The notes under the pieces were generated by a model. The model saw only the letters and a program-made list of their open reading frames with translations, did no database searches and was not told where the DNA came from. Shown here piece by piece: positions 1 through 29,489 of a DNA stretch of 34,533 bases. The stretch is from Vulcanimicrobiota bacterium (lineage in GTDB: Bacteria > Vulcanimicrobiota > Xenobia > Xenobiales > JADMJV01). Position numbers and translations under genes: made by a program. Position 1 is the stretch's first letter, and every line of letters starts with the position of its first letter. The stretch lies in contig JALHOV010000005.1 of NCBI GenBank assembly GCA_022842865.1, forward strand, positions 1 to 34,533. Reading direction: 5' to 3'.

Positions 1-27
1 GGTGGCCGCCGAAGCTGGATTGGCCTA

Positions 28-182
28 GAAAAGGGGACCCGGGGGACAAAGGGGACCGGGGAGACAGTTTCACTTCTCCCATTTTTAGGGTTGGACTGGC
101 GCACACTTGCGAGTCCAACCCATAAATAGACCTTCGGAGAAACTTTCTCCAATGTCCCCAACGTCCCCCGGGTCCCCTTTCC
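28..182. repeat. Long imperfect inverted repeat with nested hairpins
   Basis: The outer arms at 28-47 and 163-182 are reverse complements at 19 of 20 positions, and weaker pairing continues inward (51-56 with 154-159). A second dyad at 88-97 and 112-121 is a perfect 10-bp stem, and its loop can add four pairs (100-103 with 108-111). Positions 136-150 form a self-palindromic GGAGAAACTTTCTCC. The whole block can fold into one long hairpin or cruciform of about 155 bp ending 15 bp before the methyltransferase start. It resembles a REP/BIME or MITE-like element, but no transposase is present and only one copy lies in this window. A regulatory leader is the alternative. Confidence 0.75.
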
Positions 183-197
183 ACGGAAAGACCTGAA

Positions 198-920
198 ATG
201 GCCAAACTCGGAAAACATAGTGCGAAGCTGAAGCAGTTGCTGCAGTTGGATAAGGCGTCGGTGAGGCGCGACTTGGGGCTCTTCCTGGTGGAGGGGCCCA
301 AGTTGCTGTTAGAGGCGCACAACGGTTATCACGAGCTGCGCGAGATTTTCTTTGATCCGGCTCGACACCAATTCGACCTGGGCGTGCCGGGCTGGCACGT
401 GGACTCGGAATTGCTCGATCGGGTTTGCGAGGCTCACCAGGGCGTCGTGGGCGTGGTCGAGTCGAAACCCTGGCCCGATATGCACCAGTACAATCGCCTG
501 GTGGTGGCCGACGGGCTCTCGGACCCGGGCAATCTGGGAACGCTTATGCGCAGCGCCTGGGCCTCCGGCATGGAAGCGCTGGTGTGCCTGGGCGGGGTCG
601 ATCCGTTTAACCCCAAGGTCGTGCGCGCCAGTGCCGGCGCCATCTTTCATTTGCCGGTCTACCGCTTGAAGTCGGGCCAGGAATTGGCCGAATACCCGTT
701 GGTGGGGCTCTCGCCTCGGGGTGGACGCGACCTGTATTCCATGCACTGGCCGCGGCGTTGGGGCCTGGTCGTCGGCAACGAAGCCCACGGACTGACCCTG
801 GAGGTGCAGGCCCTGTGCACCATCCCGATGGAGCACGGCTGCGAGTCGCTTAACGCGGCCACCAGTGCCTCGGTCGTCCTATTTGAGTACCGTCGTACTG
901 TTATGACCGGCAGTTCATAA
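198..920 (+). CDS. TrmH/SpoU-family RNA 2'-O-ribose methyltransferase
   Basis: Probable SAM-dependent methyltransferase of rRNA or tRNA ribose 2'-hydroxyls, cytosolic. All three SpoU motifs are visible: DPGNLGTLMRSA around residues 109-120 (motif 1, with the conserved Asn and Arg), GNEAHG at 193-198 (motif 2, usually GNExxG), and IPM followed by SLNAATSASVVLFEY around 209-231 (motif 3, the knot that binds SAM). The N-terminal 90 residues match the substrate-binding domain of the family, including the FLVEGPKLLLEA segment. Length (240 aa) is normal for a single-domain member plus this extension. The ATG is preceded by GGAAAG at 185-190. The exact RNA target (23S rRNA or tRNA) cannot be read from sequence. 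An inverted-repeat block sits directly upstream. Confidence 0.95.
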   Translation: MAKLGKHSAKLKQLLQLDKASVRRDLGLFLVEGPKLLLEAHNGYHELREIFFDPARHQFDLGVPGWHVDSELLDRVCEAHQGVVGVVESKPWPDMHQYNRLVVADGLSDPGNLGTLMRSAWASGMEALVCLGGVDPFNPKVVRASAGAIFHLPVYRLKSGQELAEYPLVGLSPRGGRDLYSMHWPRRWGLVVGNEAHGLTLEVQALCTIPMEHGCESLNAATSASVVLFEYRRTVMTGSS

Positions 921-965
921 CTCGGCAACCGATCCATCCACTCTGGACGCTATCCTAATAGAGCG

Positions 966-1730
966 ATGAACTCGATCAGCTCCAGCCTCAACTTGAACAG
1001 CAGAAAGCCGATGTGCTCCGGGAATCCCTGGGGCGCGGTGGCACCGCGTGCACACGTAGGAGGTTCCGAATACAAGCTGGTTCCAGACAGCGTCCAGATC
1101 ACACCCGCTGCGTCCCGGCCCGAGTCGGCGCCACCGGCGGCAGTCCGGCCCTCGGGCTATCCCAACATGGAGAGCCTCTCCAAGCAGACTGGCATCGCCA
1201 TCGCGGCGGCTGCCACCTCGTCCCCCCTGATGGTGGTGTTGCTCGGAACCCACGAATCTTCCAAAAAAGACCAGGCCGAAACCATCGCCAACAACCTGGG
1301 CCTCGTTCACCTCAACATGGGGGACATGATCGAGCAAGAAGTGAGTAGCGGCTCCGAACTGGGAGTAAACCTCAAGAAGGCTCTCGACAGTGGCGATGAG
1401 TCGCCGGCCCTGTTGCTCTACGACCTGGTCGCCAAGCGCGTGGAGCAGCCCGACGTGCAACAGCACGGTATGGTATTGGACGCCTACCCCGAAGACTTTA
1501 AACACCACAAAGCCGAAGCGCTGCTGGAAGAGCTGCAGGGCCTGCGCCTCATCGAACTCTCCCCTTCCGAAAAGAAGTGCGCCGATTGCACCCCGGTGGT
1601 GCAGGCCGCCCGTCAGCGCGGCGCGTATTTCCAGGTCGATGATGAAAAGGACCGCCAGGACACCGCAGATGTCTTGGAAGCTCTGGTGGATAATTTCCAC
1701 AGCGCTCCCGTCCGCATGTTGGCCATTTAG
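966..1730 (+). CDS. Degenerate adenylate-kinase-like protein with N-terminal extension
   Basis: Residues 88-245 follow the adenylate kinase fold order: a strand plus P-loop-equivalent (94-103), an NMP-binding stretch (LGLVHLNMGDMIEQEV), an ELG helix, a central QHGMVLDAYPEDF strand matching the kinase DGFPR element, and a C-terminal VDDEKDRQDT stretch matching the RxDDxxET region. The P-loop GxPGxGKGT has become GTHESSKKDQ, keeping a lysine but losing the glycines. The DGFPR arginine is replaced (DAYPE) and the LID is much reduced, leaving only a CADC remnant. Catalysis is therefore unlikely; a nucleotide-sensing or scaffold role is an inference. The first 85 residues are low-complexity (Ser/Pro/Ala). 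It ends 11 bp before the WD40 kinase gene, so the two probably share a transcript. A large antisense frame here is a shadow. Confidence 0.8.
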   Translation: MNSISSSLNLNSRKPMCSGNPWGAVAPRAHVGGSEYKLVPDSVQITPAASRPESAPPAAVRPSGYPNMESLSKQTGIAIAAAATSSPLMVVLLGTHESSKKDQAETIANNLGLVHLNMGDMIEQEVSSGSELGVNLKKALDSGDESPALLLYDLVAKRVEQPDVQQHGMVLDAYPEDFKHHKAEALLEELQGLRLIELSPSEKKCADCTPVVQAARQRGAYFQVDDEKDRQDTADVLEALVDNFHSAPVRMLAI

Positions 1731-1741
1731 CCAGACTCTCC

Positions 1742-3490
1742 GTGCGTGATCCTCTGCCGCCGGGCACTTTGCTGGGCGACGGTCCCTTTCAAATCGGAGA
1801 GTTAGTCGGCCAGGGCGGCTTCAGCCTCACCTATGCCGCCACTCAAGGCAATTGGCGAATGCCGGTGGCCCTGAAAGAGTTCTTTCCCCAGGGATGCCGT
1901 CGCCAGGGGCAACAGGTTGTGCCGGACCACGAAGCCGACTTTCACAGCGGCGTCGACTCTTTTCTTCAAGAAGGCAGTACGCTGGAACGCTTTTATCATC
2001 CCGGAGTGGTGCGCGTGCTAGGAAGTTTCCGCGCCAACGGCACCGCTTACCTGGTCGAAGAACTGCTGCAAGGAATCACCCTGGCCGTTGGCCTGGAACG
2101 GGCGGGCTCGATGTCGCTGCACCGCATGCTCGACCTGGCCTCTCAGGTGGGCCAGGCCATGCTGCTGGTACACGCGGCCGGATTGATCCACTCCGACCTG
2201 AAGCCCGACAATCTATTTTTGACCCGTCAAGGTCGTTATGTGATCCTGGATTTCGGCACCGCCCGCAGCGGCCACCAACAACTCCGCCAGCGCGAGGTCT
2301 CGCCCGGCTACTCCCCGCCGGAACAGTATGAGCGGGTCCCGCTCACTCCGGCCGCCGATGTCTATGCGCTGGCCGCCAGCATGGTTCACCTGGCCACCGG
2401 CAGCCCTCCCCCGGACGCGCGGGCACGCTTGCAGGGCGAAGTTCTGCCCCCCCTGGAGGGCCTCAGCGAAGGGCTGCGCCAGGCCCTTTATCAGGGCTTG
2501 CAGCTCGATCCCCGGCAGCGAACCGGCTCTATGCGTGCCTTTCTGGCCAGCCTGGGTCTGGAAGCCTCTCCGAAGTCGGCTCAGGGCGGCCTTCCCGGGT
2601 TTGAAGCGCTGGCTCGCAAGGCAGCCCACAGCGGCGGAGTCTACGCCCTTTGCCTGCACGCCACCAGTGCACGCCTCTACTCGGCCGGCCGCGACGGGTT
2701 CTGGCGCAGTTGGAGTTGGCCGCAACTGGAGTTGTTGCACAGCCAGAAAGCTCATGCCACTCCCATTCACAGCCTGGCCCTCTCGTCCGACGGAACCTAT
2801 TTGGTCACAGGAGCTCAGGACGGGTCGATCCGACTCTGGAACGCTCACGCGCCCTCGGGTGAAGGCTTTCCGCTGCTGAGCGAGGGCCCCGCCGTCAATA
2901 GCCTGGCCTTTCATCCCAGCCAACCGGTGGTGGCTGCCTGTCTGATCAACGGGGAATGCTGCCTGGTCGGACCTACCTTGGAAAAGCCCAATCGCTGGTC
3001 GGCCCATCAGGGCTCGGCCAACAGTCTGGCCATCGACCCCGGCGGAGTCTGGCTGGCCACGGCCGGAGATGACAAGGCGGTGCACCTCTGGTCTTTGCCC
3101 GAGGGAAGCTACGCAGGCAGCTTGCTGGGTCATACTTCTCGCGTCCAGGGTGTGCGCTTCATCCAAGACGGTGGTGGTTTGCTCACTTGCTGCGCGGACA
3201 TGACGGTACGCGCCTGGGAGCTCGAAGAGAAGCGAGAGGTACGCTGTCTGCGCGGGCACAAAGGGATGATTTGGACGGCTCAGGCCCACCAAAACCTGGT
3301 GCTGACCGCCTGCGCCGATCGCTGCCTGCGCGCCTTTCGCCTGGACGGCGGTCGCTTGTTGCTGCAGAGCGAAGCCCACGAACAATGGGTACGCTGTCTG
3401 GCCTACGATAGCGCCGGACAACTGGTGGCGAGTGGCGGAGGGGATGGGAAGATCTGCCAATGGCGCCTGCCGGATCTGGCCACATGTTGA
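1742..3490 (+). CDS. Ser/Thr protein kinase fused to seven WD40 repeats
   Basis: Predicted soluble bacterial Hanks-type kinase. Residues about 15-270 form the kinase: glycine loop GQGGFS (23-28), VALKEF with Lys45, catalytic loop HSDLKPDN (150-157), DFG at 170-172 and PPE (192-194) in place of APE. The catalytic loop is HSD rather than HRD, so this is a non-RD kinase that may not need activation-loop phosphorylation. Residues about 296-578 contain seven WD40-like units, each ending near a W or F strand (for example TGAQDGSIRLW and TAGDDKAVHLW), enough for one closed propeller. There is no transmembrane segment, unlike PASTA kinases. The start is GTG; I see no clear Shine-Dalgarno, so coupling to the gene 11 bp upstream is plausible. 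The propeller probably recruits substrates or partners. Confidence 0.95.
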   Translation: MRDPLPPGTLLGDGPFQIGELVGQGGFSLTYAATQGNWRMPVALKEFFPQGCRRQGQQVVPDHEADFHSGVDSFLQEGSTLERFYHPGVVRVLGSFRANGTAYLVEELLQGITLAVGLERAGSMSLHRMLDLASQVGQAMLLVHAAGLIHSDLKPDNLFLTRQGRYVILDFGTARSGHQQLRQREVSPGYSPPEQYERVPLTPAADVYALAASMVHLATGSPPPDARARLQGEVLPPLEGLSEGLRQALYQGLQLDPRQRTGSMRAFLASLGLEASPKSAQGGLPGFEALARKAAHSGGVYALCLHATSARLYSAGRDGFWRSWSWPQLELLHSQKAHATPIHSLALSSDGTYLVTGAQDGSIRLWNAHAPSGEGFPLLSEGPAVNSLAFHPSQPVVAACLINGECCLVGPTLEKPNRWSAHQGSANSLAIDPGGVWLATAGDDKAVHLWSLPEGSYAGSLLGHTSRVQGVRFIQDGGGLLTCCADMTVRAWELEEKREVRCLRGHKGMIWTAQAHQNLVLTACADRCLRAFRLDGGRLLLQSEAHEQWVRCLAYDSAGQLVASGGGDGKICQWRLPDLATC

Positions 3491-3506
3491 CCAGTCAAAG
3501 AGAGTT

Positions 3507-3541
3507 TTAACTTTTCTGCAACAAAAACCGACAAAAGTTAA
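3507..3541. promoter_or_regulatory. AT-rich 9-bp inverted repeat downstream of the kinase
   Basis: TTAACTTTT at 3507-3515 and AAAAGTTAA at 3533-3541 are perfect reverse complements separated by 17 bp. The block lies between the kinase stop (3490) and the small orphan gene. It is AT-rich against a GC-rich background. It could be an operator for the orphan gene or a weak terminator; there is no GC-rich stem, so I favour operator. Confidence 0.45.
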
Positions 3542-3545
3542 CATT

Positions 3546-3575
3546 TTGAGCCTCCCAAAGTCTTGCTCGTATGTA
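3546..3575 (+). promoter_or_regulatory. Candidate sigma-70-like promoter for the small Gly-rich gene
   Basis: TTGAGC at 3546-3551 and TATGTA at 3570-3575 are separated by 18 bp, giving a start point near 3582, about 37 bases before the ATG. It overlaps the edge of the AT-rich inverted repeat. Both boxes are imperfect, so this is only a candidate. Confidence 0.3.
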
Positions 3576-3618
3576 AAACTGAATGCAAGCAACGAAGAAA
3601 CCAGGAGGATTTACAGTT

Positions 3619-3900
3619 ATGGCAATCGGCGGTGGCGGTGGCGGTGGTTTAGGCGGTGGTGGACAGAACATCACCAACTACAACCAGCAAGCAATGGACC
3701 AGCAGATGCAGCAGACGGATCAGCGTCAAGCTCTTTCGACGCAGCGTCAGACCCAGCTCGAACTGAAGAAAGCAGATGAGAATGACCGCGCCAATGTGGC
3801 CAAGCTCATGACCTCAATCAACGATATCACCTTTGGTATCCAGAAAGACAAAATGGCCTCGGCGAACAAAAACTCCGAGTCCGCTCGCGCTCTTCTCTAA
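3619..3900 (+). CDS. Small Gly-rich/Gln-rich orphan protein (93 aa)
   Basis: I do not recognise a family. I chose the ATG at 3619 because AGGAGG at 3603-3608 sits at ideal spacing; an in-frame ATG at 3583 has no such site. The protein starts with MAIGGGGGGGLGGGG, continues with a Gln/Asn-rich stretch (residues about 16-45), then a charged, probably helical C-terminal half ending near SESARALL. It has no signal peptide, no transmembrane segment and no cysteine. It is flanked by a candidate promoter and a strong terminator, so it is likely transcribed alone, possibly at high level. A secreted helical protein of a type III-like system, a structural protein or a regulatory small protein are all possible; none is shown by the sequence. 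Confidence 0.8.
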   Translation: MAIGGGGGGGLGGGGQNITNYNQQAMDQQMQQTDQRQALSTQRQTQLELKKADENDRANVAKLMTSINDITFGIQKDKMASANKNSESARALL

Positions 3901-3920
3901 AGTTCGTCCCTCCAGAAAGC

Positions 3921-3950
3921 AAAAAGACCGGCCGCCAGGCCGGTCTTTTT
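3921..3950 (+). terminator. Intrinsic terminator after the Gly-rich orphan
   Basis: A perfect 13-bp stem (3921-3933 with 3938-3950) with a four-base loop has an A-tract on the left arm and a T-tract on the right. It is a textbook Rho-independent terminator that can work on both strands. It insulates the small gene from metH. Confidence 0.95.
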
Positions 3951-4050
3951 GTTTGTCGGAGGGGAACTTTGGGGGGAAGCGTATATAAATCACAATCTCC
4001 TACAAACTCGGGGTCCCGGGCTGCTTAGGTGTAAATGGAGAACCTCAGCC

Positions 4051-7000
4051 TTGAATATTGAAGATCTCATCAAAGAGCGTATCGTTATCCTGGACGGTGG
4101 CATGGGCACCATGCTGCAGCGCAAGGAAATTACGGAAGAACAGTATCGTGGAGAACGTTTCGCCGACCACCCCGGCAGCCTGAAAGGCAACTGCGACCTG
4201 CTCAACCTGACCCGCCCGGAGGTGGTGGAAGCCATCCACCTCGAGTATTTCCGGGCCGGCGCCGACATGGTGGAAACCAACACCTTTAGCAGCAACTCCA
4301 TCTCCCAGGCCGACTACAGCCTGCAGTCCCTGGTCAGCGAACTCAACCTGGCCGGTGCGCAGGTGGCCCGACGGGCCGCCGACCTCGCCGAAAAAGAAGA
4401 CGGCAAAAAGCGCTTCGTGGCCGGCTCCATCGGCCCCACCACCAGAACCTGCTCGCTGGCCGTCGATCCCAATGATCCCGGCTTCCGCGCCTCCAACTTC
4501 GAGGAAATGGCCGACGCCTACTACGAGCAAATGGTCGGTTTGCTGCAGGGCGGCGTGGACGTGCTGCTTTACGAGACCATCACCGACACCCTCAACCTGA
4601 AAGCCGGCCTCTTCCGTCTGGAGGAAGCCTTCGAAACGGCCGGTCGGCGGGTGCCGCTGATGATTTCGGTCACCGTCATCGATATTTCGGGACGAACCCT
4701 GTCTGGCCAGACGGTGGAAGCCTTTTGGGCCAGCGTGCGCCACGCCAAGCCCTTCTCGGTAGGCCTCAACTGCGCCCTGGGAGCCGATTTGCTGCGACCC
4801 TACCTGGAAGAACTGCACAACCTGGCAGACTGTTACATCAGTTGCTATCCCAACGCCGGTCTGCCCAACACCATGGGGGGCTTCGACGAAACTCCCGAAC
4901 ACTTCTCCGAGGTGCTTTGTGAGTACGGCCGTCAAGGCTGGCTCAACATCGCCGGCGGCTGCTGCGGCACGGGCCCGGAGAATATCGCCTTGCTGGCCAA
5001 GGAGATCGCCAGCATCCAACCCAGACAACGCCCGCAGCGCAACCGCCATCTCAGCGTGGCCGGTCTGGAGGCGTACACCTTAAAGCCCACCACCGGGTTT
5101 TCGATGATCGGCGAGCGCACCAATATCACCGGCAGTCCCAAATTCGCCGAACTCATTCGCCAGGGCGATCTGGAGAAAGCTCTGGCGGTGGCCCGCCAGC
5201 AGGTGGAAAACGGCGCCAATCTGCTCGACATCAACATGGATGAGGGAATGATCGACTCCAAGGCCACCATGGTGCGCTTCCTCAACCTGGTCGGCTCGGA
5301 GCCGGACATCTCCAAGGTGCCGCTCATGCTGGATAGCTCTCGCTGGGACGTGCTCGAAGCGGGCCTGCGCTGCGTTCAGGGCAAGTGCATTGTCAACTCC
5401 ATCAGTCTGAAAGACGGGGAAAGCGAATTTTTGCGCCGCGCGAGCCTGTTGCAGCGCTACGGTGCGGCCGCCGTGGTCATGGCCTTTGACGAAAACGGCC
5501 AGGCCGACACGCGCGAGCGCAAACTGGCCGTGTGCCAGCGCGCCTTCAACCTGCTGCGCGAAAAACTCGACTTCGCGGCCGAGGACATCGTCTTCGATCC
5601 CAACGTCTTGACCGTGGCCACCGGCATGGAAGAACACGATCTCTACGGACTTCACTTCATCGAGGCCGTCGGCGACATCAAGAAAGCCTGTCCAGGCTGT
5701 CTAACCGTCGGCGGCATTTCCAACGTCAGCTTCTCGTTCCGCGGCAACAACCCGGTGCGCGAAGCCATGCATGCGGCCTTTCTCTACCACGCCATCAAAA
5801 ATGGCCTGGACTTCGGCATTGTCAACGCCGGCATGTTGAGCGTCTATGAGGAAATCCCGGCTGACCTGTTAGAGCGTGTCGAAGACGTTCTGCTTTTCCG
5901 CCGTGCTGACTCCACCGAGCGAATGGTGGCCTATGCCGAGGAGCTGAAAGCCAAAAACGCCGCCGCCGGGGGCGGTCCGGTCGCAAAAGAAACGGCCGAA
6001 TGGCGAAGCTGGCCGGTGGCCGAACGCTTGAAGCACGCCCTGGTTAAAGGACTGGTCGAGCACATTGATGAGGACGCCGAAGAAGCCCGGGTCGCCTTGG
6101 GCCGTCCGCTACTGGTCATCGAGGGTCCTATGATGGACGGTATGAACGTGGTGGGGGACCTGTTCGGAGCCGGCAAGATGTTCTTACCACAGGTGGTCAA
6201 GAGCGCCCGCGTCATGAAGAAAGCGGTGGCCTACCTGGAACCGTTTATGGAAAAGGAACGGGCTGGTGCCAGTTCCAGCAAAGGCACGGTTCTGCTGGCC
6301 ACCGTAAAAGGGGACGTGCATGACATCGGCAAGAACATTGTGAGCGTGGTGCTGCGCTGCAATTCCTACGAAGTCATCGATCTGGGCGTGATGGTGCCCT
6401 GCGACAAGATCCTGGCCGCGGCCAAGGAGCATAACGTGCAGGCCATCGGACTTTCCGGCCTGATTACTCCGTCCTTGGACGAGATGGTGCACGTGGCCAA
6501 AGAGATGGAGCGCTTGCAGGTCGGACTGCCGCTGCTGATTGGCGGCGCCACCACCAGTCGCGCCCACACGGCCGTAAAGATCGCACCCAGGTATGGCCAG
6601 CCGACCGTTCACGTGAAGGACGCGTCGCGGGTGGTGCAGGTGATGCAGAACCTCAATGACCCGGCAGCACGGCCGGGCTACCTGGCCGAACAAGAGAAAG
6701 ACTACGAGGAACTGCGCCGCCGACACGGCGAGGGGCAGGCCAAAGAGCGATTTTTATCCTTGGAACAGGCACGAACCAATGGTCTGAACCTGGACTGGAG
6801 CGAGGCGAGACTGGCCCAGCCCGAGTTTTGGGGAGCGCGCAACTGGGAGCCGGAACTCTCGGAAATCGTGCCCTACATCGACTGGACGCCCTTTTTCAGC
6901 ACCTGGGAACTGCGTGGTGCTTACCCCCGCATTTTCCAGGATCCGCAAGTCGGGAGTGAGGCCAAAAAGCTGTTTGACGACGCCCAGGCCTTGCTCAAGC

Positions 7001-28874: not shown

Positions 28875-29489
28875 ATGGACATCACACGCGCAACCGGATC
28901 CGGCGGCTGGGGTAGCCCCGCTCCCAGAACACAGCCCAAACTGGAGCCCACCAGCCCCGACATCGTCGGCCCCTTCTTCCGAGATGGTTCCGTAGTTTCC
29001 GACCGTCTCTGCGAAGCCAGCGAGCCCGGCGAAAAGCTGATTCTACAAGGCAAAATTCTTGACCAGAGTGGCAAACCCGTGCAAGGCGCCAAAGTGGACG
29101 TCTGGCAAGCGGATCGAACCGGCGCTTACGACATCAGCGACCCGGCCGACAAAGACAATCCGGCTTTCCCCATGAAATTCCGCGCCCATCAAGTGACCGG
29201 CCCCGATGGCGAATTTGCCTTCAAGACGATCCGCCCCGGGCATTACCAGATCGGTGAAAATCAGTGGCGCACCGGCCACATCCACGTGAAGGTTAACGAC
29301 GGCCAACACAAGGACTTGACCACCCAGCTCTACTTCCCGGAAGATCTTATGACCCCGGGCAATGCCACTTCCGACCTGAACGACAGCGACCACTGGTTCG
29401 ACCCTAAGCGGGTTGTGGAACTGGTTTCTAACGGCAACCAGTGGACCCAGGCCAACTACAACATCGTGCTGGCCGACCCCGGCAAGTAA
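28875..29489 (+). CDS. Intradiol ring-cleavage dioxygenase family protein
   Basis: Non-haem Fe(III) dioxygenase fold that opens catechol-type rings between the hydroxyls. KLILQGKILDQSGKPVQGAKVDVWQADRTGAYD is the signature beta region (described by positions 54-86), and the four iron ligands can be placed at Tyr85, Tyr124 (PGHYQI), His135 and His137 (GHIHV). TTQLYFPEDL follows. At 204 aa it is a compact single-domain member close to protocatechuate 3,4-dioxygenase beta-like proteins. There is no signal peptide, so it is cytosolic. AAGGGGGT precedes the ATG. No other aromatic-degradation gene is near, so the substrate is unknown. The stop directly abuts that of the convergent TPR gene. Confidence 0.93.
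   Translation: MDITRATGSGGWGSPAPRTQPKLEPTSPDIVGPFFRDGSVVSDRLCEASEPGEKLILQGKILDQSGKPVQGAKVDVWQADRTGAYDISDPADKDNPAFPMKFRAHQVTGPDGEFAFKTIRPGHYQIGENQWRTGHIHVKVNDGQHKDLTTQLYFPEDLMTPGNATSDLNDSDHWFDPKRVVELVSNGNQWTQANYNIVLADPGK

Follow-up and report, generated by a model that had tools for sequence, protein, structure and literature searches.

A maintained adenylate kinase homologue with ruined active-site motifs, probably a pseudoenzyme, encoded beside a WD40 Ser/Thr kinase in one bacterial genus

Near the start of the window, a 34,533-nucleotide stretch of a Vulcanimicrobiota bacterium genome (contig JALHOV010000005.1), lies a gene for an adenylate kinase (Adk) homologue, referred to here as psAdk, which we read, at roughly even odds (about 0.5), as a noncatalytic, protein-binding pseudoenzyme within the pathway of the Ser/Thr kinase encoded downstream. 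The parts of this reading differ in strength. To judge from its motifs, psAdk is near certain to lack catalysis, and its binding of nucleotides is likely to be poor or nil. It plausibly acts through protein contacts of its N-terminal 45 residues and C-terminal tail, and the adjacent kinase is, from its position and conservation, a plausible partner. The features of the locus are:

198–920, forward strand: SpoU-family RNA methyltransferase, the conserved upstream neighbour
913–928, forward strand: 16-bp element GTTCATAACTCGGCAA, identical in five genomes and overlapping the methyltransferase stop codon
966–1730, forward strand: psAdk, an Adk homologue near certain to be noncatalytic, 254 residues, ATG start, with orthologues in all five genomes of the genus
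966–1100, forward strand: conserved N-terminal extension, residues 1–45 (MNxI...NPWGAVAPR...D.VQ), in outline common to intact accessory Adks of sister families
1101–1220, forward strand: variable Ala/Pro/Ser-rich linker, residues 46–85 (pN/pS 0.57)
1245–1274, forward strand: degenerate P-loop GTHESSKKDQ, residues 94–103 (GPPGSGK[SG]TQ in intact relatives)
1479–1493, forward strand: DAYPE, residues 172–176, replacing DG[FY]PR and invariant in five genomes
1563–1589, forward strand: deletion point of the LID and arginine-bearing helices, at about residues 200–208 (hhalign and MAFFT alignments with four intact extended Adks)
1590–1727, forward strand: C-terminal part of the CORE and tail (QDTADVLEALVDNFHS.PVRMLA), near-identical in all five genomes of the genus
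1742–3490, forward strand: Ser/Thr protein kinase with a WD40 propeller and catalytic motifs, GTG start, the next gene in all five genomes
3619–3900, forward strand: small Gly-rich protein, 93 residues, the conserved downstream neighbour

Residues 92–187 of psAdk match the Pfam ADK family (PF00406; 1.2e-14, with 55.2 bits where the cut-off is 26.8), covering only positions 1–93 of the 151 in the profile. Matches in NCBIfam comprise 21 models, 20 of adenylate kinases and one of a UMP-CMP kinase, all far under their curated cut-offs, and a sequence search of the PDB returned 94 distinct sequences at E ≤ 1, headed by maize Adk (1zak, 6.5e-15). Given the Pfam match and the 94 PDB sequences, the likeness to Adk is not a matter of chance; with its significant profile match and predicted Adk fold, psAdk belongs to the PF00406 homology family.

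The P-loop does not fit the GxPGxGKGT pattern in psAdk and is degenerate in all five orthologues. Retained are the first glycine (Gly94), Ser98 and the Walker lysine (Lys100); the other glycines and the threonine are gone, GxGK being reduced to SSK and the threonine position holding Asp or Gly. The change of DGFPR to DAYPE, again in every orthologue, replaces glycine with alanine and the AMP-site arginine with glutamate. At the NMP site, the Ser-[Thr/Val] pair of intact relatives is replaced by Asn/His-Met, and the arginine a few residues beyond is Glu, Lys or Arg depending on the species. Roles in ATP binding, AMP binding and catalysis are assigned to these positions by reference to E. coli Adk. 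Absent by comparison with the closest intact relatives is a block of about 25 residues comprising the whole short LID and the remaining conserved arginines; no LID with catalytic arginines, whether short or zinc type, is left, the region being deleted relative to four intact relatives, and a Pfam search gave no ADK_lid (PF05191) match at E ≤ 1. Past the deletion, PVV.AARQRG.Y.QVD corresponds to PV..YFR..GE...[VI]D in intact relatives. Gly94, Ser98, Lys100 and Asp172 are invariant among the five orthologues, as is the glutamate at the AMP-site arginine position, and the C-terminal tail is nearly so. The destroyed P-loop and lost DGFPR arginine described in a first-pass annotation of this sequence are thus borne out, the latter with a Gly-to-Ala change besides; its ‘reduced’ LID was correctly seen as affected but understated, the whole short LID having gone together with the remaining conserved arginines.

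Prediction of full-length psAdk is poor (mean pLDDT 45.3). A model of the core (residues 84–254), built from an alignment that joins three orthologues to the N-terminal portions of six Adks from viral contigs, reaches a pLDDT of 73.9 and a pTM of 0.71, its strands and helices reading in the Adk order; alignments A5 and A6, with misplaced C-terminal parts, were left out of folding. As only four psAdk rows cover them, the predicted C-terminal strand and helix are independent of intact Adk rows, and confidence in this part is lower (block means of 59–77, below 50 for the last ten residues). The best Foldseek match to the core model has an E-value of 2.7e-10, and the 50 matches listed are by title all Adks or AK isozymes except 5ukd, a UMP/CMP kinase. 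Superposition on Adk, the structural check proposed in the first-pass annotation, succeeds for the predicted core (VIA-align against AK2, Z 17.4, rmsd 2.9, 158 of 171 residues), and the CORE and NMP-side helices of Adk are predicted to be retained in the product.

The core model also superposes on human AK4 (Z 16.0), which, unlike psAdk, is a full-length human mitochondrial Adk. AK4 retains its LID and its nucleotide binding. The title of a 2009 study by Liu et al. calls it ‘enzymatically inactive adenylate kinase 4’, and it reportedly interacts with the ADP/ATP translocase. Adk-like domains of two ciliary proteins are similar as well, that of FAP42 (7n6g) in sequence (4.7e-10) and fold (Z 15.4) and that of AK9 (9d2f) in sequence (9.9e-11); these are large eukaryotic multidomain proteins.

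All five genomes available for the genus carry a psAdk orthologue, those of the other four being 68, 83, 85 and 89% identical to the window protein; the source genome (G000) amounts to 8.0 Mb in 809 contigs, with 82.2% of expected markers and 6.25% contamination. Named records with orthologues, at 80–88% identity, are two Candidatus Eremiobacterota MAGs and Bacterium isolate SZAS-1, which carries the label EREM; the Eremiobacterota are a little-studied bacterial phylum. A profile of the five psAdks, run against 149 genomes of the phylum, gave full-length matches in five, all of its own genus, and matches at E ≤ 1e-8 in 27, with the score dropping from 483.6 to 76.7 bits at the sixth-best. Among 68 distinct Adk-like ORFs (at least 100 residues, phmmer E ≤ 0.01, from selected loci rather than a phylum census, six from viral contigs), the P-loop is canonical in 63; the remaining five are exactly the psAdk orthologues of the genus.

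Encoded elsewhere in the source genome, on contigs other than that of psAdk, are four further Adk homologues, all with intact P-loops, and the best-quality genome of the genus (G003; 97% complete, 2% contamination) yields the same five Adk matches. The second, intact adk that the first-pass annotation had suggested looking for therefore exists, and one of the four is in a secY-linked setting: the Adk on contig C687 (G000:C687) has intact motifs and lies after a SecY-like gene and before map and ribosomal-protein genes, as named from their sequences. The order secY-adk-map is the usual location of the housekeeping adk. This housekeeping-type protein shares PF00406 with psAdk and differs from it in its intact P-loop, its ADK_lid domain (PF05191) and its gene order. 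Against the ADK profile, the four intact paralogue types (three represented by their G000 copies, the putatively exported type by its G003 copy) score 4.9e-50 to 5.9e-51 along most of its length. One paralogue in each of the five genomes (L005, L051, L053–L055) has a signal-peptide-like hydrophobic N-terminus (for example, LRRLLLLLCLSL) and on that account is possibly an exported adenylate kinase; another, the C676 type (L002, L038, L039, L040), adjoins a gene whose product resembles flagellar FliP in sequence. In G005, the single genome that represents a different genus of this family, every Adk match has an intact P-loop.

With four intact-P-loop paralogues in the same genome, psAdk might be the heteromer partner of one of them, regulating or placing it. 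However, the four sit on other contigs, and LID-bearing bacterial Adks are mostly monomeric. We hold this to be improbable, even though allosteric regulation and scaffolding are among the pseudoenzyme roles named in the accessible part of a review (PMC10211241).

Among the five psAdk genes, dN/dS (Nei–Gojobori) is 0.066–0.131 in nine of the ten pairs, the G000–G004 pair being saturated; the values are approximate because dS is high for several pairs (0.73–2.57 where finite). The four intact paralogue types span 0.038–0.178, 0.051–0.122, 0.051–0.147 and 0.068–0.359, with four genomes compared both for the putatively exported type (the frame of the G000 copy diverges from the rest towards the end) and for the C676 type (the G004 member was not found). 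Given the range in nine of ten pairs, psAdk is a maintained gene under strong purifying selection, comparable to that on its paralogues. A decaying pseudogene or an assembly error, for which the motif losses alone would speak, is rejected on the dN/dS values and on an open frame that recurs, with identical motifs lost, in five independent assemblies. Constraint varies along the protein, with pN/pS at 0.262 for residues 1–45, 0.570 for 46–85, 0.146 for 86–191 and 0.171 for 192–254. What had been described as an 85-residue low-complexity extension therefore fits only the variable linker at about residues 46–85 (0.57), residues 1–45 being conserved (0.26).

Purifying selection similar in strength to that on the intact paralogues would also suit a psAdk that is still an enzyme, working by migrated catalytic residues or a different phosphotransfer, and some pseudoenzymes may catalyse by migrated residues, according to the accessible part of the same review (PMC10211241). 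With the LID and the recognised catalytic arginines missing, this is very improbable. The marks of a pseudoenzyme are instead found together in psAdk: catalytic residues lost from a fold predicted to be kept, maintenance by selection (dN/dS in nine of ten pairs), and relatives in the same genome with intact motifs (four homologues with intact P-loops, one of them in secY-adk-map order). The earlier suggestion of a likely pseudoenzyme is strongly supported by the losses in all five genomes and the four intact-P-loop homologues, and further by the strong purifying selection and the Adk-superposing predicted core.

Trees place psAdk among Adks with an N-terminal extension. In a 68-row tree it falls inside a 12-row group (SH-aLRT 99) made up of psAdk, the extended Adks of G006, G010, G011 and G012, and three others. 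A more careful 59-row tree, lacking 12 mostly long-branched loci, three of whose proteins are back in it as L105, L111 and L118, gives the 12-row group 96/97 and psAdk with the four extended Adks 95/75, the latter below the level that the program stars. The psAdk stem is long (2.84–3.02 changes per column, versus 0–0.21 for end branches within the group) and may be attracting long branches. Outside the tree data, M1, N2, I4, P21, W22, A24, P27 and D41 of the N-terminus are common to eight rows, and a global hhalign comparison of psAdk with extended intact Adks has a probability of 99.8, an E-value of 1.4e-27 and 30% identity over 233 columns, the rows of both comparisons having been chosen because they share the extension. 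The shared N-terminus and full-length match further support the grouping. These accessory extended Adks (L010–L013, from G011, G006, G010 and G012) are collinear with psAdk over its full length and begin with the same MNxI...PWxA..P...D outline; unlike psAdk, they retain GPPGSGK, DG[FY]PR and a short LID with arginines, and the four neighbours of psAdk are absent from their 10-kb stretches. The accessory Adk of G011 matches the ADK profile at 3.5e-39.

On the trees, the long stem, the shared N-terminus and the hhalign match, the ancestor of psAdk is likely to have been an N-terminally extended accessory Adk of the type still intact in sister families. Most likely, such an intact-motif enzyme became noncatalytic along the branch leading to this genus and has since stayed constant. 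Sequence comparison and trees indicate a burst of change on that branch, which removed the P-loop glycines and threonine, the AMP-site arginine, the entire LID and the rest of the catalytic arginines, followed by purifying selection on the altered protein.

The gene order methyltransferase, psAdk, kinase, small Gly-rich protein, metH recurs in all five genomes of the genus (in G004, metH is a 78-residue piece within the stretch compared). The distance from the psAdk stop codon to the kinase GTG at 1742 is 11 nt, as first annotated, and to the aligned first codon of the kinase in G003, G001, G002 and G004 it is 8, 8, 2 and 24 nt, the true start in G002 being uncertain because the aligned codon is CTG. 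The kinase has its glycine-rich loop, lysine, H.D[LI]KP.N and DFG motifs in every genome of the genus. Over the matched part, the small Gly-rich protein is 83–97% identical in the other four genomes, and it has no Pfam match at E ≤ 1. As other neighbours are conserved too and each genome has about 80 kinase-like matches (at least 79–81), the position of psAdk beside the kinase is on its own weak evidence. A paralogue of the kinase, 49% identical to it, is encoded at G000:C51. Beyond the genus, the best three matches to the kinase (in G006, G005 and G016) are 34, 32 and 38% identical and were rejected as orthologues; in the stretches around six further kinase copies (L123–L128), neither psAdk nor the methyltransferase, the small protein or metH has a match at E < 1e-3.

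Since neither the ATP site nor the AMP site looks functional, psAdk most likely acts by binding other proteins. Its N-terminal 45 residues and its C-terminal tail, both conserved, would contact the partners, the first candidate being the downstream WD40 Ser/Thr kinase, which psAdk would recruit, inhibit or present with substrate. That this LID-less Adk is a dedicated regulatory subunit of the kinase, as adaptor or sensor, is a tentative extension.

Owing to the invariant Walker lysine, first P-loop glycine, Ser98 and Asp172, psAdk could possibly still bind phosphate or nucleotide. A noncatalytic sensor, in which the CORE and the remaining P-loop lysine hold an adenine nucleotide or other phosphorylated ligand and the energy state is signalled to the kinase, would draw on the invariance of these four residues in five genomes and on the adjacent kinase in each; standing against it are SSK in place of GxGK, Asp or Gly in place of threonine, glutamate in place of the AMP-site arginine, Asn/His-Met in place of the NMP-site Ser-Thr and the missing LID, so that both substrate sites look damaged. 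We consider it rather unlikely. The retained P-loop lysine and DGFPR aspartate are compatible with the energy or nucleotide sensor proposed in the first-pass annotation, but do not amount to support for it; the invariant glutamate at the AMP-site arginine and the Asp or Gly at the P-loop threonine speak against nucleotide binding.

Rather than binding a partner, the N-terminal extension might be an export or sorting signal, with psAdk acting at the export apparatus or beyond the cytosol. M.I[ST] N-terminal tails on another Adk paralogue type and the many FHIPEP export-gate matches in the genus would suit this. However, the psAdk tail profile matches nothing else in its own genome (next best E 0.244), and the sole full-length gate protein classified is flagellar FlhA. 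FHIPEP matches are uninformative on export, as they occur in all 12 relatives searched. This placement is improbable, to about the same degree as partnership with an intact Adk. The N-terminus was also rejected as a genome-wide sorting tag, its profile finding psAdk alone at E < 0.2 in its own genome.

The M.I[ST] tails occur on the paralogue type L003, L017, L049 and L050 and on the window ORF at 28875–29489. Matches to FHIPEP (the FlhA/SctV export gate) number 11 in G000, 15, 17, 19 and 13 in G001–G004, 10 in G005 and 8 in G006, with 2–3 in each of six f3 genomes searched, some being pieces of one frame. The loci include G000:C455 (L132:1216–2490), G000:C95 (L133:25–2667) and L130, which passes the FlhA cut-off; most other matches are limited to roughly the cytosolic half of the model. 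An 880-residue protein with a match also has a FliG-like stretch.

Upstream of psAdk, the element GTTCATAACTCGGCAA is identical in five genomes despite widely differing synonymous sites; it is a possible control site. Its last 15 bases occur once in their own genome at up to one mismatch. A regulon of the upstream element was rejected, TTCATAACTCGGCAA having one site in the source genome (≤1 mismatch) and the reversed control pattern likewise one. In window positions 1–4100, no sigma-70-like promoter was found, against 1.0 expected by shuffling.

A model enzyme, Adk is both essential and highly conserved. In the literature searched, which lay largely outside subscription journals, we found no bacterial Adk clearly inactive yet kept by selection. 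The inactive Adk described, in the accessible part of the source, is human AK4 (PMC10056885), and the accessible main texts of a pseudoenzyme review (PMC10211241) and a bacterial pseudokinase review (PMC12599244) make no mention of ‘adenylate kinase’. Among the matches listed, and as far as the sources were accessible, ‘inactive adenylate kinase’ leads to eukaryotic material or E. coli Adk and ‘adenylate kinase-like domain’ to human HYDIN.

As the intact ancestor type persists in sister families, the path from enzyme to pseudoenzyme, through changes in P-loop, AMP site and LID, is open to reconstruction and experiment, as is the new function. If psAdk binds the neighbouring kinase, the Adk fold would be tied to Ser/Thr kinase signalling in genomes with at least about 80 kinase-like matches each. 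Were it a dedicated subunit of that kinase, this would be a bacterial kinase pathway in which an enzyme of energy metabolism has been recruited, stripped of catalysis and kept as an adaptor or sensor.
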